Assembly (NCBI RefSeq): GCF_900104475.1
Contig: NZ_FNJR01000007.1
Coordinates: forward strand, 124,001-188,000
Length of the DNA stretch: 64,000 nucleotides
Direction: 5' to 3'
Origin: Actinopolyspora xinjiangensis
GTDB taxonomy: Bacteria; Actinomycetota; Actinomycetes; Mycobacteriales; Pseudonocardiaceae
Below the pieces are notes generated by a model, which had not been told where the DNA came from, searched no databases, and saw only the letters and a program-made list of their open reading frames with translations. Positions 11,409 through 24,731 of the stretch are shown here, piece by piece. Position 1 is the stretch's first letter. Each line of letters opens with the position of its first letter. Position numbers and translations under genes: made by a program.

Positions 11409-13727
11409 TTAGTTCGCGGGGTCGGCGTATATGACGCCTCGTCCGTTGGTTCCGAGGTACACCCGCCCGTACACGTCCGGGTCACCGGTGATGGCGTCAC
11501 CGATGTTGCCGTACTGGTGCTGGTCGTCGTTGATGCGAGTCCAGCTCTGCCCGGCGTCGTCGGAGCGGAACACGCCGGTCACCCCGTCGATCGTGGCGAT
11601 CGAGTACATGGCGGGGTAGTCACTTCCCGGCGCGGACTTGCCGAACCCGATGTTGTCGGAACCCGCCACTCCGGAGACCTCGCTGAAGGACTCCCCGGCG
11701 TCGGTCGAGTGCCACAACCCTCCCTCGCCGGTGAGCCAGATGTCACCGGAGCGCCCGGGCACGGCCTTGAAGTAACCGCTGCCCGAGGGGAGCCCGGAAG
11801 CCGGTGAGGCGGTGAAGCTGGCTCCGCCGTCGGTGCTGACGTAGAAGGTCCCCTGGTGGAAACCGTAGAACCTGTCCGGATCGACCCGGTCGGACTCCAC
11901 GCGCGCGCCGCTGGGGATTCCCGTGGACGCCTGCCAACTCGCGCCCTGGTCGGTCGTGTAGTGCACGCCGGTGCCCTCGGGACTCCAGACGAATCCGCTG
12001 CCGTCCGCTGCCGCCGCGACGGTTCCGCCGCCGGTGACACCGGACGGTTCGGTGTTCTGGAACCAGCTCTTCCCGCCGTCGTAGGAGAACGCCACCCGAC
12101 TGTCGTCGGGCCTGCTCGACTTGTCGAACTCGCCCACGCGCACCATCGTCCCCGGCGACATCCCGGCGTAGTCCATGCTGGTGGTGCTGGTGAAGACGGG
12201 GTTCTCGTACATCATGTCCGGCACCTCGTCCAGTCGTTCGTGCCGGAAACCGCCGATGTCACCGAGAGCGGAAAGCACCGGCGCACCGCCCGGCGGACTG
12301 ATCAGGTCGAGTACGGCGGTCTCCTCCAGTCCGGCCACGCTGGGTTCGATGTCGATCTTGTTTCCCCGGTCCCACCGGGTGAGGTTGTCGGTGCCGTAGA
12401 TGGTGGCCCCGGTGCCGTAGAGCATGTGGTCGGAGTCGAACGGGTCTATCGCCATCGCCTCGGTCATCCAGCCCAGCTTCGGCGAGGTCTCCGGCGGGAC
12501 CGGCTGCTCGGTTCCGAAGGTCAGCCAGGGCACCGAGGAGACGTCCATCTCGTAGTTCAGTTCCCGCTCGGGGTAGGCACCCCAGTCCCAGATACGACTC
12601 CAGCTCTGGCCGCCGTCGGTGCTGCGGAAGAGGATCACGTCGGGCCACCACGAGATCTGGGTGGCGACCATGAGTGTGTCCGGGTTCTGCCGGTCGATGG
12701 TCAGCCCACTGTAGCCGTAGTCGTTGTCGGCACTGGTGGACGGCACCGGGCTGATCCGGGTCCACTCCCCGCTGTCGGTGTCGAGCTTCCACACGTCACC
12801 GGCGCTGCCGTCGTAGGGGCCGCCGGTGTCGCTGGTGGCCATGTACAGGTAGCCGTTCTCGCTGTCGACCACGGCCTGGTGCGCGAGATAACCGGTCGGC
12901 TGGTTCGGTACGCGTTCCCAGGTGGCCCCCGCGTCGGTGCTGCGGTAGATCGTGTTCTGCTTGTCCGCGACCCCGACGTAGATGTCGCTGGTGGGGCTGC
13001 CGCTGGTTCCGCTGCCACGGTCGAAGGTCACCCAGGTGACACCCTGGTTGTCCGAGTAGAAGCCGGTCGAATCAGTCGGGTCGGCGACGTAGTCGCCGGG
13101 ATTGGGAAAGTTCTCCACCTCGGACCAGGTGGCCCCGTGGTCGGTGCTGCGCCACAGTCCGTTCCCACTCGGGGTCCCCAGGTAGAGCACGCTGTTGTCG
13201 TTGGGGTCGATCGCCAGCCGTTCCCCCATGCCGCGACCGGGCATGTTCCCGCCGAGCTTGAAGGGGAGCTCGCTGATCTTCCAGGTCTCGCCGCGATCCG
13301 TGGAACGCAGCACGGCCCCGTTGTTGGGGTCCCAGCTGTTGGTGTACATGCCGACGGCGGCGTAGACCCGGTCTGGGTCGACGGGGTCGGTGGCCACGCT
13401 CGCCACCCCGTTGTAGCCCCAGTTGTCCTGGCCGACCCAGTCCAACAGGGGCTTCCAGCGTCCGTCGGTGCCGGAGTCACGGCGGTAGACGCCGCCGATG
13501 TCTGTTCTGGCGTAGACCAGGCCCGGCTCGGTGCGGTTGAACACGATGCCGGGCACGAATCCGCCACCGCCGATCTCGGCGTTGCGCCAGTCGTAGTTCT
13601 CACTGTCGGCAGTGGTTCCGGTCGCGGTTCCGGCCTCCGCCGCCGAGGGGGTCGTGGTCGCCGGACTCGTCAGCGTCACGGCTGACAGCAGCGCGGCCGT
13701 GAGGAGCACGGGTAACCGTCTCCGCAT
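11409..13727 (-). CDS. secreted GH74 xyloglucanase / xyloglucan-specific glycosidase
   Basis: The 772-residue precursor has a signal peptide (MRRRLPVLLTAALLSAVTL..ATTTPSAAEA) and repeated BNR/Asp-box blades such as STDRGETW, STDHGATW, STDAGATW, STDGGQSW and SDDAGQSW, the tandem seven-bladed propeller pattern of GH74. The N-terminal YDWRNAEIGGGGFVPGI and DIGGVYR segments are typical of the family. It should cut xyloglucan outside the cell. The carbohydrate-binding module that many GH74 enzymes carry is absent. GGAGG stands 6 bases before the ATG. Promoter and operator are described separately. Confidence 0.93.
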   Translation of the reverse strand: MRRRLPVLLTAALLSAVTLTSPATTTPSAAEAGTATGTTADSENYDWRNAEIGGGGFVPGIVFNRTEPGLVYARTDIGGVYRRDSGTDGRWKPLLDWVGQDNWGYNGVASVATDPVDPDRVYAAVGMYTNSWDPNNGAVLRSTDRGETWKISELPFKLGGNMPGRGMGERLAIDPNDNSVLYLGTPSGNGLWRSTDHGATWSEVENFPNPGDYVADPTDSTGFYSDNQGVTWVTFDRGSGTSGSPTSDIYVGVADKQNTIYRSTDAGATWERVPNQPTGYLAHQAVVDSENGYLYMATSDTGGPYDGSAGDVWKLDTDSGEWTRISPVPSTSADNDYGYSGLTIDRQNPDTLMVATQISWWPDVILFRSTDGGQSWSRIWDWGAYPERELNYEMDVSSVPWLTFGTEQPVPPETSPKLGWMTEAMAIDPFDSDHMLYGTGATIYGTDNLTRWDRGNKIDIEPSVAGLEETAVLDLISPPGGAPVLSALGDIGGFRHERLDEVPDMMYENPVFTSTTSMDYAGMSPGTMVRVGEFDKSSRPDDSRVAFSYDGGKSWFQNTEPSGVTGGGTVAAAADGSGFVWSPEGTGVHYTTDQGASWQASTGIPSGARVESDRVDPDRFYGFHQGTFYVSTDGGASFTASPASGLPSGSGYFKAVPGRSGDIWLTGEGGLWHSTDAGESFSEVSGVAGSDNIGFGKSAPGSDYPAMYSIATIDGVTGVFRSDDAGQSWTRINDDQHQYGNIGDAITGDPDVYGRVYLGTNGRGVIYADPAN

Positions 13728-14437: not shown

Positions 14438-15928
14438 TCAACCCTGCTCGGGCGACTCCATCCGCCCGTTGACGCGACGCGGGATCCCCAGCGGGTTCCC
14501 GTCGCGCAGCGCCTCGGGAAGCACCGCGCGCGGTGCGCTCTGGAACGACACCGGGCGCAGGAACCGGTCGATCGCGGCCGTTCCCACCGAGGTGTGCGTC
14601 GGGGCCGTGGTGGCCGGGTAGGGTCCGCCGTGCTGCATCCCGTGGCTGACGCTGACGCCGGTGGGCCAACCGTTCCAGACCAACCTGCCCGCGCGGGCGC
14701 GCAGCGTGCGGAACAGCGGCGCGACGACGCTCTCCTCCTCATTGCCGTGCACGGTGGCCGTCAGCTCCCCGGAGAAGACCCCCGCCGCCTCCAGCAGCTC
14801 ATCGGTGTCGGAGTAACCCACCAGCAACGAGACCGGACCGAAGCACTCACCCGCCAGCTCCTGCCGGTTGTCCACGAGCTGGCGCGCCCCGGTGTAGAGC
14901 AGGCTCGGGCCCACCCCGTCCTCGGTGCGCCGCCCCGAGACCAGCGTCTCCACCGCCGGGTGGTTGCGCAGCGAACCCAGCGTGTCGTGGAAGGCGGTCT
15001 CGATCCCCTCGTTGAGCATGGGAGCCGGGGCGCGCTGCTCCACCTCCGGGATCAGCACGTCGCGGAACCGCTGCGCCGCGCTGGCCGGCACCAGCAGCAG
15101 GCCGGGCTTGGTGCAGAACTGTCCGACCCCCAGGGTGTAGGAATCCAGGTAGCCCCGGGCGATCTCCGCACCACGGCCCGCCGCCGCTTCCGGCGTCACG
15201 AAGGCGGGGTTGACGCTGCCCATCTCGGCGTAGAAGGGGATGGGGGACTCGCGGGAGGAGGCGAGGTCGAACAGCGCGCGTCCCCCGCTGTTGGAACCGG
15301 TGAAGGCACCGGCCCGGACCCGCTCGTCCAGCAGCGCGGCCCTGGCCGGTTCGTTCCCCTCCAGCAGCGCGAAGGTCCCGTCGGGCGCACCCGCCTCGGC
15401 CAGCGCGCCGGTGACGATCTCCGCCGTCCTGCGGGAGAGCTCGGGATGGCCCGGGTGTGCCTTGACCACCACCGGGCAACCGGCCGCCAGCGCCGAGGCG
15501 GTGTCGCCACCGGCCACGCTGAAGGCGAAGGGGAAGTTGCTCGCGGCGAACACCAGCACCGGACCGAGCGGCAGCAGCGTGCGACGCAGGTCGGGACGGG
15601 CGCCGGTCGGCCACTCCGGATCGGGGGAGTCGATCGTGGCCTTCAGGTGCGCGCCCTCCTCGACGGTCTCGGCGAACAACCGCAGCTGGAAGGTGGTGCG
15701 GACGAGCTCGCCGCGCAGCCTCCCCTCCGGGAGGTGGGACTCGCGCCGCGCCAGCGGCACCAGCTCCTCGGTGTGGGCGTCCAGCTCGGACGCTACGGCC
15801 CGCAGCAGGCCACCGATCTCGGCGGGGCTCGTCGCGGCGAGCCTCGTCGCGGCGGCGGTGGCGTTGTCGAGCACGGTTTCGAGCCCGTCACTCGTGGAAA
15901 CGCTCTGGGACGGTGTCATGGGACTCAC
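14438..15928 (-). CDS. aldehyde dehydrogenase, 2,5-dioxovalerate (alpha-ketoglutarate semialdehyde) type
   Basis: The 496-residue enzyme has the ALDH catalytic set: Asn131 (ASNFPFAFS), Glu235 (YAEMGS) and Cys272 (GVGQFCTKPG), plus the cofactor loop FTGSNSGGRALFD. The GNEPARAALL and SSRESPIPFYAEMGSVNP patterns match the alpha-ketoglutarate semialdehyde dehydrogenase branch, which oxidises 2,5-dioxopentanoate to 2-oxoglutarate at the end of non-phosphorylative pentose, hexarate and hydroxyproline routes. The start is GTG 15928 or ATG 15919, both served by the same AGAGGAGG. It follows the Zn-dehydrogenase gene by 132 bases and is probably part of that operon. Confidence 0.83.
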   Translation of the reverse strand: MSPMTPSQSVSTSDGLETVLDNATAAATRLAATSPAEIGGLLRAVASELDAHTEELVPLARRESHLPEGRLRGELVRTTFQLRLFAETVEEGAHLKATIDSPDPEWPTGARPDLRRTLLPLGPVLVFAASNFPFAFSVAGGDTASALAAGCPVVVKAHPGHPELSRRTAEIVTGALAEAGAPDGTFALLEGNEPARAALLDERVRAGAFTGSNSGGRALFDLASSRESPIPFYAEMGSVNPAFVTPEAAAGRGAEIARGYLDSYTLGVGQFCTKPGLLLVPASAAQRFRDVLIPEVEQRAPAPMLNEGIETAFHDTLGSLRNHPAVETLVSGRRTEDGVGPSLLYTGARQLVDNRQELAGECFGPVSLLVGYSDTDELLEAAGVFSGELTATVHGNEEESVVAPLFRTLRARAGRLVWNGWPTGVSVSHGMQHGGPYPATTAPTHTSVGTAAIDRFLRPVSFQSAPRAVLPEALRDGNPLGIPRRVNGRMESPEQG

Positions 15929-16060: not shown

Positions 16061-17074
16061 TCACGGCCGCAGCAGGATCTTCACGTCCGAGCCCCGCCGC
16101 TGCCCCAGCAGCCGGAGGGCCTCGGAGGCCTCCTCCAGTTCCAGCTCGCGGGTGACGAGCAGCCCCGGATCCAGCACACCGCTGGTGAACGCCGACACGG
16201 CGTGGGCCCACGCCCGCGAGGGCGCCCCGAAAACGGTGTGCACCGTGACCTGCGAGAGCACCAGCCGAGCCGGATCGGGCGGCCGGGGATCGTCGGCGGC
16301 CACTCCGGTGAGGACCACGCGCCCGCCGGGGCGGACGAGTCTGGTGGCGAGGGCGGCTGTGCCCGGGGCACCCGCCGCCTCCAGCACCGCGTCGTAGCCA
16401 CCGGCGAGGCGTTCGGCCTCCTCGGGCTCCCGGATATCGGTGGCGCCGCAGGCGGTCGCGATCTCGGCCCGTTCACCCGGCTCCACCACGGTCAGCTCGA
16501 CGGGCGAGGACGCCGCGATCAGCTGGGTGGACAGCAACCCGAGACTGCCCCCGCCGACCACCGCGACGCGTTCGCCCGGGACCACCGCGAGCTTGAGGGT
16601 GGCCGCGGCCGCACACGCGGCCGGTTCCAGCACCGCCGCCCCGCGCGGATCGGCGTCGTCGGGCAGCGCGTGCAGCAACCTGGCGGGCAGGGTCAGGTAG
16701 TTCGACCAACCACCGGGACGGGTGAAGCCGGTTTCGTCGTACTGCGTGGCGCAGAGGTTGTTGTCACCCCTGCGGCAGGCGGGGCACACCCCGCAACCGC
16801 GGAACCCCTCCCCCACGACCAGCCGACCGCTGAGCTCCGCGGGCACGTCCGCGCCGACCTCGACGACCCTGCCGGACCACTCGTGCCCGGGAACCACCGG
16901 GTAGCTCACGAAGTCGGCGGGCCGGTTCCCGGTGAACACCTCCCGGTCGGACCCGCAGATCCCGCTGCGGGCGACCTCGACGAGGGCCTCCCCGGGACCG
17001 GGTTCGGTGGGTTCGGTCGGGACGGTGCGAATGCTGCCCGGCTCGTCGATGCGAACCGCCCTGGCATCGCTCAC
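16061..17074 (-). CDS. zinc-dependent medium-chain alcohol/sugar dehydrogenase
   Basis: The 337-residue MDR enzyme has the catalytic zinc site Cys in SGICGSD, the GHEWSGRV segment, the structural zinc cluster CGVCPACRRGDNNLC and the nucleotide-binding VVGGGSLGLLS. It should oxidise a sugar, sugar acid or polyol with NAD(P). Its ATG overlaps the preceding dehydratase stop (ATGA), so the two act in one pathway. In known sugar-acid routes such an enzyme either makes the aldonic acid or oxidises a 2-keto-3-deoxy intermediate. The exact substrate is not readable from sequence. Confidence 0.85.
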   Translation of the reverse strand: MSDARAVRIDEPGSIRTVPTEPTEPGPGEALVEVARSGICGSDREVFTGNRPADFVSYPVVPGHEWSGRVVEVGADVPAELSGRLVVGEGFRGCGVCPACRRGDNNLCATQYDETGFTRPGGWSNYLTLPARLLHALPDDADPRGAAVLEPAACAAAATLKLAVVPGERVAVVGGGSLGLLSTQLIAASSPVELTVVEPGERAEIATACGATDIREPEEAERLAGGYDAVLEAAGAPGTAALATRLVRPGGRVVLTGVAADDPRPPDPARLVLSQVTVHTVFGAPSRAWAHAVSAFTSGVLDPGLLVTRELELEEASEALRLLGQRRGSDVKILLRP

Positions 17075-18234
17075 GAAGCACTCGCCCCCTTGGTGCCCCG
17101 GAACTGCCAGTCCTCCGCGTAGAGGTCGAACCTCGCGCCGCTGGCGGGGTACTCGCGCACGAAGTCGACGTCGAGCTCGACACCCAGCCCCGGAGCGGTC
17201 GGCAGCGCGAAGAAGCCGTCCTCCACCTCGGGCAGTCCGGGGGCCGCCTGCTTCACGTGGGAGTCGGCGAAGTCGTTGAAGTGCTCCTGGATCTTGAAGT
17301 TCTCGGTAACCGCGGCCAGGTGCAGGTTGGCCGCCGTGAGCACCGGGCCGCCCACGTTGTGCGGGGCCACCAGCACGTAGTGGGTCTCGGCCGTGGCGGC
17401 CACCTTGCGGGCCTCCAGCAGCCCCCCGAAGTGACCGATGTCCGGTTGGATGACGTCGGCGGCCTGCAGACCGAACAGCTCGCGGTACTCGATGCGGTCG
17501 TGGATGCGCTCACCGGTGGCCACCGGCAGCCTGGCCTCGCGCGAGACCTTGGCCAGCGCCTCGGGGTTCTCCGGCGGGACCGGTTCCTCGATCCAGCTGG
17601 GATCGAAGCGCTCCAGCTCACCGGCGATCCGGGTGGCCTCGGCCGGGGTGAACCGGCCGTGCATCTCGACCAGGATCTCCACGTCGGGTCCGACCGCGTC
17701 CCTGACCGCGGAGACGAGCTCCACCGAACGGCGCACCTCCGCCGGTTCCAGCTCCCAGCGGCCGGGGCCGAACGGGTCGAACTTGAGCGCCCGGTACCCC
17801 CGGTCGACCACCGCGCGGGCGGCCTCGTGGAACTGCTCCGGAGTGCGTTCCACCGTGTACCAGCCGTTGGCGTAGGCCTTCACGCTGTCCCGGACGTTTC
17901 CGCCCAGCAGCCGCCAGACGGGTTGGCCGAGCGCCTTGCCGACGATGTCCCAGCAGGCCATCTCCACGCAGGCGATCCCGGACATCACGACCTCACCGGC
18001 CCGGCCGTAGTCCCCGCGCTTCATGCGCCACACCAGCGCCTCGATGTTGAAGGGGTCGGCGCCGATCACGTGGTTGCGGGCGGCCTCGTTGAAGTAGCCG
18101 AGCAACGCCTCGGTGTGACCGAGCATCCGGGTCTCGCCCACTCCGACGATGCCGTCGTCGGTGTGCACCCGCAGATACGTCAGATCGCGCCAGGGGGTGC
18201 CGAGCACCAGGGGTTCGATTTTCGTGATCTTCAT
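17071..18234 (-). CDS. enolase-superfamily (mandelate racemase/muconate lactonising type) sugar-acid dehydratase
   Basis: The 387-residue protein has the enolase-superfamily barrel residues: Lys151 (ALKFDPFG), metal ligands Glu190 (ILVEMHGRF), Glu216 (WIEEPVP) and Glu242 (TGERI), then QPDIGHFGG and His292 (VAPHNVGG). His192 beside the first metal ligand and His292 fit acid-sugar dehydratases of the galactonate/gluconate type. The predicted reaction is removal of water from an aldonic or aldaric acid to a 2-keto-3-deoxy acid. Its ATG overlaps the upstream U32-like gene by an ATGA. Specificity (galactonate, arabinonate, xylonate or other) is open. Confidence 0.85.
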   Translation of the reverse strand: MKITKIEPLVLGTPWRDLTYLRVHTDDGIVGVGETRMLGHTEALLGYFNEAARNHVIGADPFNIEALVWRMKRGDYGRAGEVVMSGIACVEMACWDIVGKALGQPVWRLLGGNVRDSVKAYANGWYTVERTPEQFHEAARAVVDRGYRALKFDPFGPGRWELEPAEVRRSVELVSAVRDAVGPDVEILVEMHGRFTPAEATRIAGELERFDPSWIEEPVPPENPEALAKVSREARLPVATGERIHDRIEYRELFGLQAADVIQPDIGHFGGLLEARKVAATAETHYVLVAPHNVGGPVLTAANLHLAAVTENFKIQEHFNDFADSHVKQAAPGLPEVEDGFFALPTAPGLGVELDVDFVREYPASGARFDLYAEDWQFRGTKGASAS

Positions 18235-19175
18235 CGGTTTTCACCAGCCACATCGGTCGGAACGGCCAGATCGGCCACGGGCAGCTCGGAGGTCTCGGCT
18301 TCGGGCAGGTAGCGGTGCAGCATGTCCAGCCCGATGCGGGCGCGGCGGACGCGTTCCCTGCCGAGCCCCACCGCCGTGTCGGTGAGGTGGGTTCCGCTCG
18401 GATAGATGTTGGGGGCGTTGCGCAGCCCGAACTTGACGTACACCGGGGCGGCCACCCGCACGATCTCGGCGATCTCGTAGTGACGGACGAATCCGCCGAG
18501 GTCGTCGGGGGACTCGATGTAGACGTCGAGCGGAAGATCGGTGGCCGCGCGGATAGCGGCCAGCTGTGCCGGGGAGAGATCGGTGGGCACGTTGTAGGTG
18601 TCGGCGCCGAACTCCTCGGCGATGCGGATCGAGGCGGGGTTGGACAGGGCCATCTGGACGCTGATCTTGAAGCGCATGTCGGCGGGCAGCTCCCGCTGGG
18701 CGCGCATCCTGGCCGCGACGGACAACACCCCCAGGTCGGTGATCAGCACGCTGCGCACTCCGGCCGCCGCGCTTCTGCGGATGTCCTCGAGCACGTGGAC
18801 CAGCTGCTCGGTGCCGCGTACCTGGGAGGCGACCGCTCCGCCGGTCGGCGACGAGCTCATCGCTCCGGTGTGCCAACCGGCTTGCGGGCGGGCGAACAGG
18901 CTCAACTCGACGTGGTTGCGGGCGGCCGTGCCCGCCATGCGCGCGAGCTCGTCGTCGGTGAGCAGCATCGCCCCGCTTCCCTGGGAGATCCGGTGCACCG
19001 GGACGTCCCGCTCGGCTGCCTCCGCGAGCACCGCGTCGAGTACCTCCGGTCCCTCGGTGCTCGGGATCTCGACCCGGTACCGCGCACCGTCCGGGAAACG
19101 CTTGGAACTCGCCGGAGGAGCCTCGGCGTCCCCGGTGGGCAGTCCTTGGGATCGCAAGAACGTTCGTGCTTCCAA
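18231..19175 (-). CDS. TIM-barrel protein resembling peptidase family U32, first gene of the sugar-acid operon
   Basis: The 314-residue protein is not a familiar sugar-acid enzyme. Its segments SVLITDLGVLSVAARMRA, FKISVQMALSNPASIRIAEEFGADTYNVP, LSPAQLAAIRAATDLPLDVYIES and VYVKFGLRNAPNIYP follow the strand-helix rhythm of a TIM barrel and recall U32-type proteins. A typical U32 signature is not clear, and peptidase activity is unlikely in this setting; an aldolase- or dehydratase-like role would fill the gap between the dehydratase and the aldehyde dehydrogenase. The start is TTG 19173-19175, with GGAG 6 bases upstream. It heads the operon directly after an IclR-type operator. Confidence 0.6.
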   Translation of the reverse strand: MEARTFLRSQGLPTGDAEAPPASSKRFPDGARYRVEIPSTEGPEVLDAVLAEAAERDVPVHRISQGSGAMLLTDDELARMAGTAARNHVELSLFARPQAGWHTGAMSSSPTGGAVASQVRGTEQLVHVLEDIRRSAAAGVRSVLITDLGVLSVAARMRAQRELPADMRFKISVQMALSNPASIRIAEEFGADTYNVPTDLSPAQLAAIRAATDLPLDVYIESPDDLGGFVRHYEIAEIVRVAAPVYVKFGLRNAPNIYPSGTHLTDTAVGLGRERVRRARIGLDMLHRYLPEAETSELPVADLAVPTDVAGENR

Positions 19176-19185
19176 CGCCTACTCC

Positions 19186-19242
19186 GTTCGAAATATCGGA
19201 CGTTGTTCGAACAACTTAGTCGCGAAGGTTCCGCGAGGTCAA
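19186..19242 (-). promoter_or_regulatory. promoter and double IclR-type operator of the sugar-acid operon
   Basis: On the minus strand TTGACC (19237-19242) and TAAGTT (19213-19218) are 18 bases apart. The perfect palindrome GTTGTTCGAACAAC (19202-19215) overlaps the -10, and GTTCGAAATATCGGAC (plus-strand reading, 19186-19201) fills the space to the ribosome site. The second element recurs at 19285-19300 and 22699-22714. The leader is only about 30 bases, so a bound protein would block initiation or early elongation. Confidence 0.75.
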
Positions 19243-19300: not shown

Positions 19301-19381
19301 AACACACCGATGGAGATCCGGCGCGACATCGGGGACCGGGCCGTGGCGCGTCCCGACCCGAGGACGGTAGGAGCTGATCCG

Positions 19382-20143
19382 GTGGCACGAGCAGTACCCG
19401 CACTGCAGCGGGCATTCGACATCCTGGAGCTCTTCCTGGACGAGCCGGAGCTCAGCGCTCCGGAGATCACCGGGAAGCTGGGACTGCCGCGCACCACGGT
19501 CCACGAACTGCTCAGCACGCTGGTCGAACGCGGCTACCTCGTCCCCTCCGGCCGGGGCAGCACGCGCTACCGGCTGGGGGTGCGGGGGTTCCAGCTCGGT
19601 TCGGCCTACGCCGACCGGCTCGACCTCGCCCGCGAGGGACAGCTCGTCGCGGAGGAAGTGGCCGCCGAGTGCAACGAGACCGTGCACATCGGCATCCGGG
19701 AAGGCACCGAGGTGCTCTACATCGCCAAGGTGGACAGCGGACACCCGGTCCGCATGGTCTCGGCCGTCGGGAGGCGGCTACCGGCCCACTGCACCGCGGT
19801 CGGCAAGGCCCTGCTCGCCTCGCTGTCCCGGCAGGAGCTCGACGAGCTCTACGGGGCGGAACCGCCGCGTCCGATGACGGACAACAGCATCACCGATCCG
19901 GCGAGGCTGCGCGAGGAACTCGACGGCGTCGCCGAGAACGGCCGGGCACGGGAGTACTGCGAGTCCAACGACGCCGTGGCCTGCGTGGCCGCTCCGGTCC
20001 GCGACCACTACGGAGAGGTGGTGGCCGCGATGAGCATCGCGGTTCCCATCCTGCGCTGGAGCGAACGGTCGGAGCGCGAACTCGCCGAGACCGTCGTCCG
20101 GGGTGCGACGAACCTCTCGGAACGTCTGGGCAACCGCGCCTGA
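19382..20143 (+). CDS. IclR-family transcriptional regulator of sugar-acid catabolism
   Basis: The 253-residue protein has the N-terminal winged helix of IclR regulators (RAFDILELFLDEPELSAPEI, then GLPRTTVHELLSTLVERGYL, residues 8-60) and the GAF-like ligand domain (YIAKVDSGHPVRMVSAVGRRLPAHCTAVGKALLA and CVAAPVRDHYGEVVAAMSIA). It is divergent from the sugar-acid operon. GTG 19382-19384 is chosen because AGGAG stands 8 bases upstream and the domain starts there. The effector is likely the pathway's sugar acid or its 2-keto-3-deoxy product. Operators are seen at three places in the window. Confidence 0.9.
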   Translation: MARAVPALQRAFDILELFLDEPELSAPEITGKLGLPRTTVHELLSTLVERGYLVPSGRGSTRYRLGVRGFQLGSAYADRLDLAREGQLVAEEVAAECNETVHIGIREGTEVLYIAKVDSGHPVRMVSAVGRRLPAHCTAVGKALLASLSRQELDELYGAEPPRPMTDNSITDPARLREELDGVAENGRAREYCESNDAVACVAAPVRDHYGEVVAAMSIAVPILRWSERSERELAETVVRGATNLSERLGNRA

Positions 20144-20983: not shown

Positions 20984-22651
20984 CTATAAGGAGAAGGGGA
21001 CGTAACAGAGCACGGCGAGCACGATCGCCCCCCAACCGAGCAACGCCGGTTTGCGGTACCAGGCCTCGTCACCCCGCTGCATCTCGCCCGAATCCGTGGC
21101 GTCGGCCTTCGTGTAGACCAGTCCGGCGAGTTCGGCGGCGGGTTTCGGCTTGGTGGCCAACGCGATCGGGACACTGACCACGAGGTCGGTCACGAGCGCG
21201 ATGATGGCGGCGATCATGTTCACGCCCTGCGCGCTGTCCATGTCCACGATCCCGGCACGGTACATGCTGTAGAAGGCGATCGGAGCGAGCGTTCCGAGGA
21301 GCAGCCCCCAGAATCCCGCCTTGGCGGTCATGCGTTTCCAGAACAGTGCGAGAATGAACGTCGCGAACAGCGGGACGTTGAAAAAGGAGAACAACGTCTG
21401 CATGTAGTTCATGATGTTGCTGAAGGAAGCCGCGATGAACGCCGTTCCGATACCGACGAGCACACCTATGGCTGTGATGACACGACCGACCGTCAGGTAG
21501 TGCGAGTCGGGCATGTTCGGCTTTATGTAGGGGCTCCAGATGTCATTGGTGAACACGGTGTTGAAACTGGAGACGTTCGCCGCCATACCGGCCATGAACG
21601 AAGCCATCAGCCCCGTGACCGCCAAGCCCAGCACACCGTTCGGCAACAATTGCGCCATGAGCAGCGGAATGGCCGAATTGTAATCGTACTCACTGCCGGG
21701 CTGACCGATGTTGGGCTGCATGATCAGCGCGATCAGTCCGGGAAGAACCACGATCAGTGGAATGAACATCTTGGGGAACGCCGCGATCAGCGGAGTCCGC
21801 CGGGCCGCCGACAGGTTCTTGGCGGACAGCGAACGCTGCACCTCGGCGAAGTTCGTCGTCCAGTAGCCGAACGAGATGGCGAAACCGAGACCGAGCGAGA
21901 TGGTGAGCCAGTTCGCTCCCAGCGGGTTGTCCTGCCCGAAGCCGGTGCCGCCCCAGGCAGTGAGGAACTGCGCCCCCTCGGCGGCGGTCACCTTGTCGAT
22001 GACTCCACCGATGCCGCCGACCCGGATCAGCCCGAGCACGGTCAGTGGCACCAGCGCCGCCACGATGACGAAGAACTGCAGCACCTCGTTGTAGATGGCC
22101 GAGGTGAGTCCACCGACGGTGATGTAGATCAGCACGAACACACCGGCTATGACGATGGACAGCGGAATCGGCCACCCGAGCAGGGCCCGCAGCACGATGG
22201 CCAGCGCGTAGAGATTCACCCCGGCTATCAGTACCGAGGCGACCGCGAATATGACCGCGCTCAACAGGTGCGAGGAACTGCTGAATCGGCGCAGCAGGAA
22301 TTCCGGGACGCTGCGCACCTTCGAGTTGTAGTAGAACGGCATCATGACCAGGCCGAGGAAGACCATGGCCGGAATCGCGCCGATCAGGTACCAGTGCACG
22401 GTGTAGGCGCCGTACTGCGCTCCGTTGGCGGCCATGCCGAGAATCTCGGTAGCTCCCAGATTCGCCGACACGAACGCCAACCCGGTCACCCATGCGGGTA
22501 GGGAACGCCCGGACAGGAAGAAGTCGAGCGTGGAGTGGACGCTGCGTTTCGCGGCGAACGCGATACCGAGCACGACCACGAAGTAGATGACAAGAATGAG
22601 GCTGTCCATCCAGTTCATGGACAGCCGTAGCCCATCGGCCAGAGTGTGCAT
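20984..22651 (-). CDS. sodium:solute symporter (SSS family), probably sugar or sugar-acid uptake
   Basis: The 555-residue protein has about 14 hydrophobic helices. It carries SSS features: the N-terminal YFVVVLGIAFAAKR, FFLSGRSLPAWVTGLAFVSANLGATEILG with the sodium-site region in the unwound first core helix, and the central TGLMASFMAGMAANVSSFNTVF. The pattern is closest to galactose/glucose transporters of the SGLT group. The ATG at 22649-22651 is chosen; the longer open frame upstream would translate the control region. The promoter carries the same operator design as the sugar-acid operon, so its cargo is probably that pathway's substrate. Confidence 0.87.
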   Translation of the reverse strand: MHTLADGLRLSMNWMDSLILVIYFVVVLGIAFAAKRSVHSTLDFFLSGRSLPAWVTGLAFVSANLGATEILGMAANGAQYGAYTVHWYLIGAIPAMVFLGLVMMPFYYNSKVRSVPEFLLRRFSSSSHLLSAVIFAVASVLIAGVNLYALAIVLRALLGWPIPLSIVIAGVFVLIYITVGGLTSAIYNEVLQFFVIVAALVPLTVLGLIRVGGIGGVIDKVTAAEGAQFLTAWGGTGFGQDNPLGANWLTISLGLGFAISFGYWTTNFAEVQRSLSAKNLSAARRTPLIAAFPKMFIPLIVVLPGLIALIMQPNIGQPGSEYDYNSAIPLLMAQLLPNGVLGLAVTGLMASFMAGMAANVSSFNTVFTNDIWSPYIKPNMPDSHYLTVGRVITAIGVLVGIGTAFIAASFSNIMNYMQTLFSFFNVPLFATFILALFWKRMTAKAGFWGLLLGTLAPIAFYSMYRAGIVDMDSAQGVNMIAAIIALVTDLVVSVPIALATKPKPAAELAGLVYTKADATDSGEMQRGDEAWYRKPALLGWGAIVLAVLCYVPFSL

Positions 22652-22698
22652 TGTCGTCCGATCCTGTCGCCGTCCGCGAGTTGGCTCTCCAATCGCAT

Positions 22699-22753
22699 GT
22701 CCGGAATACCGAACGTTGTTCGACAACGTACGACACGATCGGGTGACGGTCAA
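22699..22753 (-). promoter_or_regulatory. promoter and double IclR-type operator of the SSS transporter
   Basis: On the minus strand TTGACC (22748-22753) and TACGTT (22725-22730) are 17 bases apart. They are followed by GTTGTTCGACAAC (plus reading, 22715-22727) and GTCCGGAATACCGAAC (22699-22714). The order, spacing and boxes copy those of the promoter at 19186-19242. Confidence 0.75.
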
Positions 22754-22882
22754 CACATGAGTAGCCCGGGTTTTCCCTCGGACGGAGTACCGGCCCCACC
22801 GTCCACTCCGCTCGACAACACACGGCGAAGCCAACGACACAGTGCGTTCACACCAGACTCCCCAGTAGCTCCCACTGCCCGC

Positions 22883-23369: not shown

Positions 23370-24731
23370 TCACTCCCAAGGCAACGTCCCACCCGGCACG
23401 GGCGCGGCGGGATCGTAGGGCTTTCTGGTGAGGATGAAGGTGTTGAGGTCCAGGTACGGGGTGGTTCCGTCCTCGGCACGCAGGACCCGCAGCCGCTCAC
23501 CGCGGTGGTACCCGTCCAGTCCGATCCAGTCGCCTTCCCCGTCCGGCCGGAAGCGCGACGCTCGCCCCGGCCCCTGCCAGGCCGAGAGGTCGAGCATTCC
23601 GTCGGGCAGCACCCGGAGCAGGTGCGGCACCGGCCCCCAGTACCACAGTCCGGTCAGCTCCAGCAGTTCCGCTGACACCTCTCCGTCGGGCGTCCACTCC
23701 GGAGGGATGCGGGGTTCGTGCTCGGCGAGGATGTCGAGCAGGTCGGTGGCGAGCGCGCCGCTCACCCCCGATGTGGTGTTGGCCAGGAACACCACGCCGG
23801 TGGACTCGGCGGGGTCGGCCAGCACGTTGGCCAGAAAGCCCGGCATGGAGCCACCGTGCCCGACGAGGGCGCGTCCGTCGTGCCGGGCCAGCTGCAGCCC
23901 CAGCCCCGCTCCTCTGGTCCACTGCGGACCGTCATCCACAGTGGCTGGTTGTCGCATCTCGTCGAGCGTGCCCGGGTGCAGCACCTCCCCGGTCTCGCCA
24001 GCGAGAAAACGCAGCCATCGGACCATGTCATCCACAGTGGACCACAGCTGGCCGGCCGGAGCCATCGCGGCGGCGTCGGCGAACGGCTCGGGCTGCAGCA
24101 CGTCCGCCCAGGGGTGCACCGCCAGGCCTGGAGCGTACGGCGCCACGGGGCTCTCCGTGGTGCGACGCATCCCCAGCGGCTCCAGGATCTCCCCCCGGAG
24201 CACCGCCGCGAACTCCTTGCCGCGCACCCGCTCGATCAGCTGCCCCAACAACCCGAACGCGGTGTTGGAGTAGTGGAACACGTGCCGCGGTTCGGGACGC
24301 AGCTGGGCACTGTCCACCCCCGCGAGAAAGTCCTCGGCAACGTCGCCCTCGGTCCGCTCCCACCACTGCCCGGCAGGTTCGGAGCTGAGGCCGCTGCAGT
24401 GCGCGAGCAACTGCCAGACCTGCCGATCGTCGACCGCCGTTCCCGGCACGTGGTCACCGAACCGGTCGGACAACGACAGCAGCCCCTCGTCGCGCAGCCG
24501 CATCACCAGCACCGCCACGAAGGTCTTGGTGATGGAACCGATGCGGTACTGCGTGTCGGCCTCGGGGCGCCGGTCGTCCACCCGACCCCGGGAATCGACC
24601 CAGATCGTCTCACCGTCACGCACCAGCCCCGCGATGAGTGAGGGAACGCGATTCCTCGACTGTTCCAGAGCCAGCCGGCGCGACAGCGCGCGTCGAGTCG
24701 CCGGCAGAAGTTCACTCGCCATGAACCACAT
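23370..24731 (-). CDS. serine hydrolase, beta-lactamase class C / penicillin-binding family
   Basis: The 453-residue protein has the three serine-hydrolase motifs: SITK near residue 65 (nucleophile Ser, Lys), YSN near 155, and HGG in ALVGHGGSMPGF. A beta-rich C-terminal domain follows (about 360-453). No signal peptide is obvious, so a cytosolic esterase or peptidase role is more likely than antibiotic resistance. The start is ATG 24731 or ATG 24722; neither has a strong ribosome site. It is divergent from the metE leader. Confidence 0.85.
   Translation of the reverse strand: MWFMASELLPATRRALSRRLALEQSRNRVPSLIAGLVRDGETIWVDSRGRVDDRRPEADTQYRIGSITKTFVAVLVMRLRDEGLLSLSDRFGDHVPGTAVDDRQVWQLLAHCSGLSSEPAGQWWERTEGDVAEDFLAGVDSAQLRPEPRHVFHYSNTAFGLLGQLIERVRGKEFAAVLRGEILEPLGMRRTTESPVAPYAPGLAVHPWADVLQPEPFADAAAMAPAGQLWSTVDDMVRWLRFLAGETGEVLHPGTLDEMRQPATVDDGPQWTRGAGLGLQLARHDGRALVGHGGSMPGFLANVLADPAESTGVVFLANTTSGVSGALATDLLDILAEHEPRIPPEWTPDGEVSAELLELTGLWYWGPVPHLLRVLPDGMLDLSAWQGPGRASRFRPDGEGDWIGLDGYHRGERLRVLRAEDGTTPYLDLNTFILTRKPYDPAAPVPGGTLPWE

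Follow-up and report, generated by a model that had tools for sequence, protein, structure and literature searches.

Positions 18231..19175 (minus strand) of a 64,000-nucleotide stretch of the Actinopolyspora xinjiangensis genome (contig NZ_FNJR01000007.1; this whole stretch is called the window below) carry a gene, designated here as T, that encodes a cysteine-free U32-like TIM-barrel protein of 314 amino acids. Based on sequence comparisons, a fold prediction and gene neighbourhoods, we propose that T is a lyase of 2-keto-3-deoxy acids and, with moderate confidence, that it dehydrates 2-keto-3-deoxypentonate (KDP) to alpha-ketoglutarate semialdehyde (KGSA). It is more probably an enzyme of sugar-acid breakdown than the protein-cutting enzyme as which its relatives are labelled. 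Among the papers listed in literature searches on U32 proteins and on sugar-acid and pentonate breakdown, none dealt with the function of T.

The open reading frame (ORF) of T runs from 19175 to 18231 and begins with TTG, with GGAG 6 bases 5' of this start. It is a genuine gene, since it is kept with 81-98% identity in all nine other genomes of the genus that were searched. T is followed on the same strand by genes for an enolase-superfamily dehydratase (ENOL; MR_MLE_N/C; 17071..18234), a Zn-dependent dehydrogenase (ZADH; 16061..17074), possibly a sugar 1-dehydrogenase, and an aldehyde dehydrogenase (ALDH; 14438..15928). The first three ORFs overlap by 4 bases at each junction, and the ALDH ORF is separated from that of the Zn-dehydrogenase by 132 bases. 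T is the first gene of this operon because the divergent gene of an IclR-family regulator starts at 19310 (19310..20143, plus strand). The best NCBIfam matches of the dehydratase, gluconate/galactonate dehydratase (312.5 bits, cut-off 750) and galactonate dehydratase (299 bits, cut-off 311), both remain under the cut-off. A preliminary description of the window had placed a U32-like barrel at the head of a sugar-acid operon with a dehydratase and a Zn-dehydrogenase; the ORF, the overlaps, the divergent IclR gene, the TIM-barrel prediction and the Pfam families bear this out, the U32 likeness being real though partial. In line with its remark that no second dehydratase or aldolase is recognised, Pfam reveals neither among the four operon proteins.

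The distribution of T is patchy: it was found in 37 of 150 related genomes (among them a marginal, partial match in G149 and a broken gene in G026) and in 40 of 396 genomes sampled throughout the phylum. At least 561 relatives were confirmed in a scan of a genome collection. For the analysis of gene neighbourhoods, the best 80 of these 561 were combined with the window, four of the five plasmid records with a match and 20 loci chosen from further genome searches, giving 105 loci. Genes were called with a codon log-odds caller (some starts are trimmed) and labelled by BLAST against a small library (E≤1e-6, at least 45% of the shorter protein) whose members were typed by a Pfam, NCBIfam or PDB match or as E. 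coli genes; families outside the library are missed. Genus labels are the names from the genome-collection scan or genus codes.

A sugar-acid dehydratase is encoded no more than seven genes from T in 57 of the 105 loci and under 37 of the 59 genus labels. The enolase type is present in 45 loci (including three Saccharopolyspora loci, L036, L040 and L056, with a different MR_MLE protein on the opposite strand), the IlvD/EDD type in eight, the GarD/UxaA type in four and a D-Ser-dehydratase-like protein in three, with some loci possessing more than one. These genes crowd next to T, with distance as the internal control: dehydratase homologues account for 32 of 208 genes directly beside T (distance 1), 11 of 200 at distance 2, 5 of 197, 6 of 192, 2 of 186 and 7 of 177 at the following four positions, 1 of 155 seven genes away and none of 217 at distances 8-10. 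All 32 adjacent ones are on the strand of T, the adjacency counts being uncorrected for kinship. The preliminary description had pointed out that homologues lying mostly away from sugar-acid genes would speak against its idea; a modest majority lies near them, concentrated in the adjacent gene, and the idea survives narrowly.

When mapped on a tree of the 105 T proteins, the label "EDD only" (six rows) requires five changes, at least four of them forced by supported branches, and the label "enolase only" 13 changes, at least six of them forced, with long branches leaving some placements unsure. T stays while the family of the neighbouring dehydratase changes, and these dehydratases share a product type, a 2-keto-3-deoxy acid. 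The D-Ser-dehydratase-like proteins presumably make 2-keto-3-deoxy acids in the manner of D-glucosaminate dehydratase, and for the other families near T not covered by the source cited next we likewise assume this product. The functions of the enolase-type and UxaA/GarD-type families are those given in PMC6336799. Because T accompanies dehydratases of different families sharing this product type, the pattern points to an action of T on or near the 2-keto-3-deoxy acid. Furthermore, among the 150 related genomes T is present in 25 of the 26 that possess the orthologous enolase-type enzyme (identity ≥64%; three weaker matches of 44-47% were dropped) versus 12 of the 124 others, the Fisher tests ignoring kinship.

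The step that T may fill is suggested by the aldehyde dehydrogenase at the end of the operon. The only PDB matches of this ALDH at E≤1e-30 are 1eyy and 3v4c, a class which we take to be the "type III KGSADH" (KGSADH3). No curated NCBIfam model reaches its cut-off on this protein, and its putative assignment as KGSA dehydrogenase comes from the company of its relatives in KdaD operons, KdaD being used here for FAH-family proteins encoded next to relatives of the window ALDH. Two genomes of the same genus (G008 and G009) possess a second operon, KdaD-ALDH-EDD, divergent from an IclR gene, whose ALDH is 54-55% identical to that of the window. On another contig G008 carries T-ENOL-ZADH-ALDH, and in G009 T, ENOL and ALDH are located together elsewhere. 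The two G008 operons correspond part by part: IclR to IclR, EDD to the enolase-type dehydratase, ALDH to ALDH and KdaD to T. The KdaD of locus L137 shares 66-67% identity with the G008 and G009 proteins, and its only PDB match at E≤1e-20 is 2-keto-3-deoxy-D-arabinonate dehydratase; the same holds for the KdaD of L111. The ALDH of L111, which belongs to another subfamily, passes the cut-off of the curated KGSA dehydrogenase model (895 versus 770 bits), and this model is also the best match of the L125 ALDH (544 bits, under the cut-off).

The 150 related genomes contain 128 copies of the window-type ALDH in 84 genomes. Eighteen copies are located within 6 kb of T only, seven within this distance of KdaD only and one (in G044) of both. 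Counted by genomes, an ALDH of this type, a putative KGSA dehydrogenase by its KdaD operons, lies no more than 6 kb from T in 19 of the 37 T genomes, in 18 of them with no KdaD beside it. Within the genus, T and ALDH occur together in all ten genomes and KdaD anywhere in four (E≤1e-30), so that six genomes, including the source genome, have the T operon with no KdaD at this threshold. The source genome encodes one DHDPS-family protein, assumed to be the enzyme of lysine synthesis, one HpcH-family protein over the cut-off, two KDPG-aldolase-family proteins, one of them after gluconolactonase-like and PfkB-like genes, and five proteins of the FAH family. In the library, the latter five match a diketo-hydrolase-like protein best (one of them weakly) rather than KdaD, a label based on NF053535 matches under the cut-off (304 and 225 of 500 bits). 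Since these proteins leave no recognised KDP dehydratase over for the window operon, T appears to be the only candidate within it.

A number of observations weigh against T as a KDP dehydratase. There are 48 of the 105 loci with no recognised sugar-acid dehydratase up to seven genes from T, among them ten Saccharopolyspora loci with an MFS gene, some also with a P450 gene, and four from Thermogemmatispora in which a carboxylesterase-family gene is present. Distant homologues (29-39% identity) are encoded beside panB in genomes of 1 Mb, ahead of a gene for asparagine synthase, or in a biosynthetic-looking cluster of an Enterobacter plasmid; the wider T family need not have one function. For one 39% homologue (L135), an ALDH gene follows and an EDD gene is found three genes on. 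As for the aldehyde dehydrogenase, the 2,5-dioxovalerate type named in the preliminary description corresponds to a model that gives 80 bits on the window protein with a cut-off of 750, leaving its role in KGSA oxidation a putative one. Moreover, for 102 of the 128 ALDH copies neither T nor KdaD is nearby, and one of the 18 copies close to T, that of G032, is encoded on the opposite strand. Among 30 genomes searched at E≤1e-40 (28 picked for a T, the other two being the source genome and that of L046), nine have no relative of the window ALDH: six of family f32, two Thermomicrobium-like and one Dictyobacter. The cut-off of the KGSA dehydrogenase model NF042993 is passed in one of 12 genomes, six f32 genomes reaching 523-539 bits.

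KdaD itself provides further points of this kind. It occurs together with T in 11 of the 105 loci, and it is present in 11 of the 37 T genomes versus 7 of the 113 others, kinship being ignored in this comparison. In L137, the genes for T, KdaD, ALDH and EDD are linked by overlaps into a single run, and two f32 loci, L149 and L150, have a KdaD-ALDH pair 7-8 kb from T. In view of this co-occurrence, T is not always the sole KDP dehydratase, and the idea that it is so everywhere was rejected. FAH proteins of another branch (the MhpD type) have KDP dehydratase activity according to PMC6336799, and one of the five FAH-family proteins of the source genome could be such an enzyme. The same source describes two KDP dehydratases of different D/L preference in one gene cluster (PMC6336799). 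Redundancy is thus possible; alternatively, T might be an aldolase or catalyse a preceding step of the pathway. The organism with the two-dehydratase cluster is reportedly Herbaspirillum huttiense.

The fold of T was predicted with AlphaFold2 from a 50-row alignment as a TIM barrel (mean pLDDT 90.5, pTM 0.89). PF01136 (peptidase U32) is matched with 34 bits, above the gathering cut-off of 22.4; the match is partial and places residues 132-220 on positions 8-90 of the 233 in the profile. No other Pfam family, PF00701 and PF01557 included, matches at E 0.01. A profile of 50 homologues aligned with E. coli UbiU, UbiV, TrhP and RlhA over residues 123-221 (95.7% probability, E 9e-9), with D217 of T facing E161 of UbiU, the glutamate kept throughout the E. 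coli alignment. The U32 structure 5d88 ranks third in both Foldseek and VIA-align (Z 14.8, rmsd 2.7, 184 residues). Other barrels score alike in VIA-align (CutC, Z 15.8; RuBisCO-like and aldolase barrels, 14-15), and the top Foldseek matches are class II aldolases (E ~1e-7, TM ~0.5). Foldseek was run with two models, from 12-row and 50-row alignments; both of them, and VIA-align, gave general barrel matches, the TM values being 0.38-0.52 on the model length among the 50 matches listed for the second model; families missing from these lists may still be similar. Searches of PDB sequences with T alone or with the homologue profile revealed no relative above noise, the best profile match being a tagatose-bisphosphate aldolase (E 0.035). 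Overall, one part of the sequence of T makes it a distant relative of the U32 proteins.

Twelve residues are invariant across the 50 homologues: E36, R62, E90, D147, K170, S172, N195, D199, D217, Y219, E221 and K248. All of them apart from E90, N195 and E221 remain invariant in a 44-row alignment including the 29%-identical Enterobacter homologue. The prediction places the lysines K170 and K248 on strands 5 and 8 of the barrel, and the alternation along the predicted strands suggests that most invariant residues should point into the barrel. E36, R62, D147, K170, D217 and K248 would likely suit Schiff-base or acid/base lyase chemistry with no need of an Fe-S cluster. Two families are known to dehydrate KDP. 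KdaD, the FAH-type enzyme (PDB 2q18), resembles T in its place in the operon, where its neighbours likewise are an IclR gene, a dehydratase of sugar acids and an ALDH of the same type, but is from an unrelated family (PF01557). The DHDPS-type L-KDP dehydratase (COG0329) catalyzes the reaction proposed for T and, as the DHDPS enzymes in general, is a TIM barrel; however, its family (PF00701) is not recognised in T, and its lysine is on strand 6 rather than on strand 5 or 8. The likeness to class II fructose-bisphosphate aldolases is one of generic barrels.

The resemblance to aldolases nevertheless requires that another function be weighed, in which T would split 2-keto-3-deoxy acids to pyruvate and an aldehyde and ALDH would oxidise this aldehyde. 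The position of T, adjoining dehydratases and directly before the ALDH gene in six loci (L046, L047, L057, L125, L126, L135), would fit such an enzyme, as would the best Foldseek matches and the two lysines K170 and K248. We regard it as unlikely, as the neighbouring ALDHs that could be typed resemble the KGSA type and not the glycolaldehyde/lactaldehyde type (note that of these only the L111 protein passes the cut-off, that of L125 being below it and the window type being placed by its company only), and as the fold matches are at the general barrel level. T could also catalyse a step preceding that of the dehydratase, converting the sugar acid or its lactone as an epimerase, isomerase or lactonase. 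Indeed, the gene of T is often found ahead of, or adjoining, that of the first dehydratase, and the L111 and L137 sets carry T despite having a dehydratase, KdaD and an ALDH of the KGSADH type. Against this stand the Amycolatopsis loci L046, L047 and L057, in which ALDH directly follows T with no enolase-type gene up to seven genes away, and genome G072, which has a T-ALDH pair and, at the thresholds applied, lacks both that enolase-type gene and KdaD. Besides, SGL or MBL genes, which we take to encode lactonases, are already present in 24 of the 105 loci, and an earlier step for T appears improbable to us. The preliminary description had left the choice between a new dehydratase, aldolase or epimerase; the place for an enzyme of 2-keto-3-deoxy acids is real and a dehydratase fits it best, with KdaD beside T in several lineages speaking against this.

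That T is a conventional U32 protein, i.e., a peptidase or an O2-independent hydroxylase, is scarcely credible. This is what the PF01136 score over the cut-off, the profile similarity to the four E. coli proteins over about 100 residues and the name "U32 family peptidase" given to the relative in two of the five plasmid records with a match would suggest. However, T has no cysteine at all, and neither the U32 Fe-S signature nor the catalytic E...C...C signature is present; the UbiU equivalog NF047963 gives 23.6 bits with a cut-off of 440. Nine of the 50 homologue rows likewise have no cysteine, 41 have some, and none is conserved (16 of 50 in the most cysteine-rich column). In contrast, TrhP needs E162, C170 and C177, according to PMC6599085, and UbiU and UbiV bind a 4Fe-4S cluster via conserved cysteines, according to PMC6747719. 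Four-cysteine clusters are conserved in eight of ten U32 families (PMC6747719); PepU32#5 is described there as having no conserved cysteines, yet includes trhP1 orthologues (PMC6599085). The neighbours of T, mostly carbohydrate genes, also differ from those of U32 proteins. With no cysteine, T has no Fe-S signature, which makes a role as U32-type hydroxylase or peptidase very improbable; this reading was set aside. The preliminary description had named an intact U32 signature as the finding that would overturn its idea; the barrel is U32-like and the signature absent, so the idea of a different enzyme stands.

With T as a KDP dehydratase, the following route can be envisaged, although each of its reactions, and the sugar being a pentose, is putative. 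The sugar would be taken up via a sodium:solute symporter (SSS) and oxidised by the Zn-dehydrogenase, and the lactone would be opened by a lactonase or spontaneously. The enolase-superfamily enzyme would then dehydrate the sugar acid to KDP, T would dehydrate KDP to KGSA, and ALDH would oxidise KGSA to 2-oxoglutarate. More tentatively, T may represent an enzyme family of its own: a KDP dehydratase unrelated to the DHDPS and FAH types that arose from a U32 barrel when the Fe-S cluster was lost and that carries its active-site lysine on strand 5 or 8. Such enzymes would be interchangeable components of the pathways for pentoses and sugar acids in Actinomycetota, Chloroflexota, Thermomicrobiota and Bacillota. 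If true, T would supply a step that is missing from the non-phosphorylative breakdown of pentoses or sugar acids in many actinomycetes, a family currently called peptidase would need a corrected name, and a third unrelated solution to the conversion of KDP to KGSA would be at hand, showing what a U32 barrel does without an iron-sulfur cluster. This conversion is used in the bio-based production of KGSA-derived chemicals and 2-oxoglutarate.

The symporter gene is located at 20984..22840 (minus strand); its ORF as listed is the longest one, and the true start is probably further downstream. A 25-base motif 5' of T (19186..19210, minus strand), a candidate IclR operator, recurs with four of 25 bases different at the start of this ORF as listed (22699..22723, minus strand). 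Because of this second copy at the upstream end of the symporter ORF, the symporter may belong to the same regulon as the T operon and could be its uptake system. A degenerate pattern made from both sites gave no third site in the window at two mismatches and no match in 100 shuffles, and the exact T motif at three mismatches matched only itself. Downstream of the operon, a BNR/Sortilin-repeat protein of 772 amino acids (11409-13727, minus strand; 101 bits with the NCBIfam F510_1955 glycosylhydrolase model, under the cut-off of 175) might supply the sugar. A beta-lactamase-fold protein with a DUF7586 domain (23370-24731, minus strand) is encoded upstream of the symporter.

Several loci of T homologues have features of their own. 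The 29% homologue of an Enterobacter chuandaensis plasmid (L112:7977-8915), annotated as "U32 family peptidase", is located in a run with genes for a phosphotransferase, an aminotransferase, an oxidoreductase, an iron-containing redox enzyme, an M14 peptidase and an MFS transporter. Three loci of one actinobacterial genus with small genomes (1.0-1.4 Mb, GC about 0.30) have a 33-35% homologue after a gene for 286-292 amino acids (L119:6338-8177, L120:925-2866, L121:7466-9417), which in L119, the only one analysed with Pfam, is panB. A 38% homologue (L134:5509-8252) is directly 5' of the asparagine-synthase gene, perhaps in a natural-product cluster. In L080 (9995-19045) and L098, T is followed by genes for RidA, a purine/cytosine-type permease, a nitrilase-family hydrolase, an amidohydrolase and an Asp/Glu/hydantoin racemase, and the set continues with a D-Ser-dehydratase-like protein and a window-type ALDH (Pfam on L080 only); it may represent a nitrogen-compound pathway. 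Near T of Saccharopolyspora elongata (L036:14795-17385, minus strand), an MR_MLE protein, a 91-amino-acid ALDH piece, which looks broken or mis-assembled, and a DapA-like protein are encoded. Finally, a lactate-racemase-family (Lar_N) gene is found among TRAP transporter, EDD, T and KdaD genes in L111 (6420-7754), and Lar_N-like genes occur near T in three Bacillota loci.

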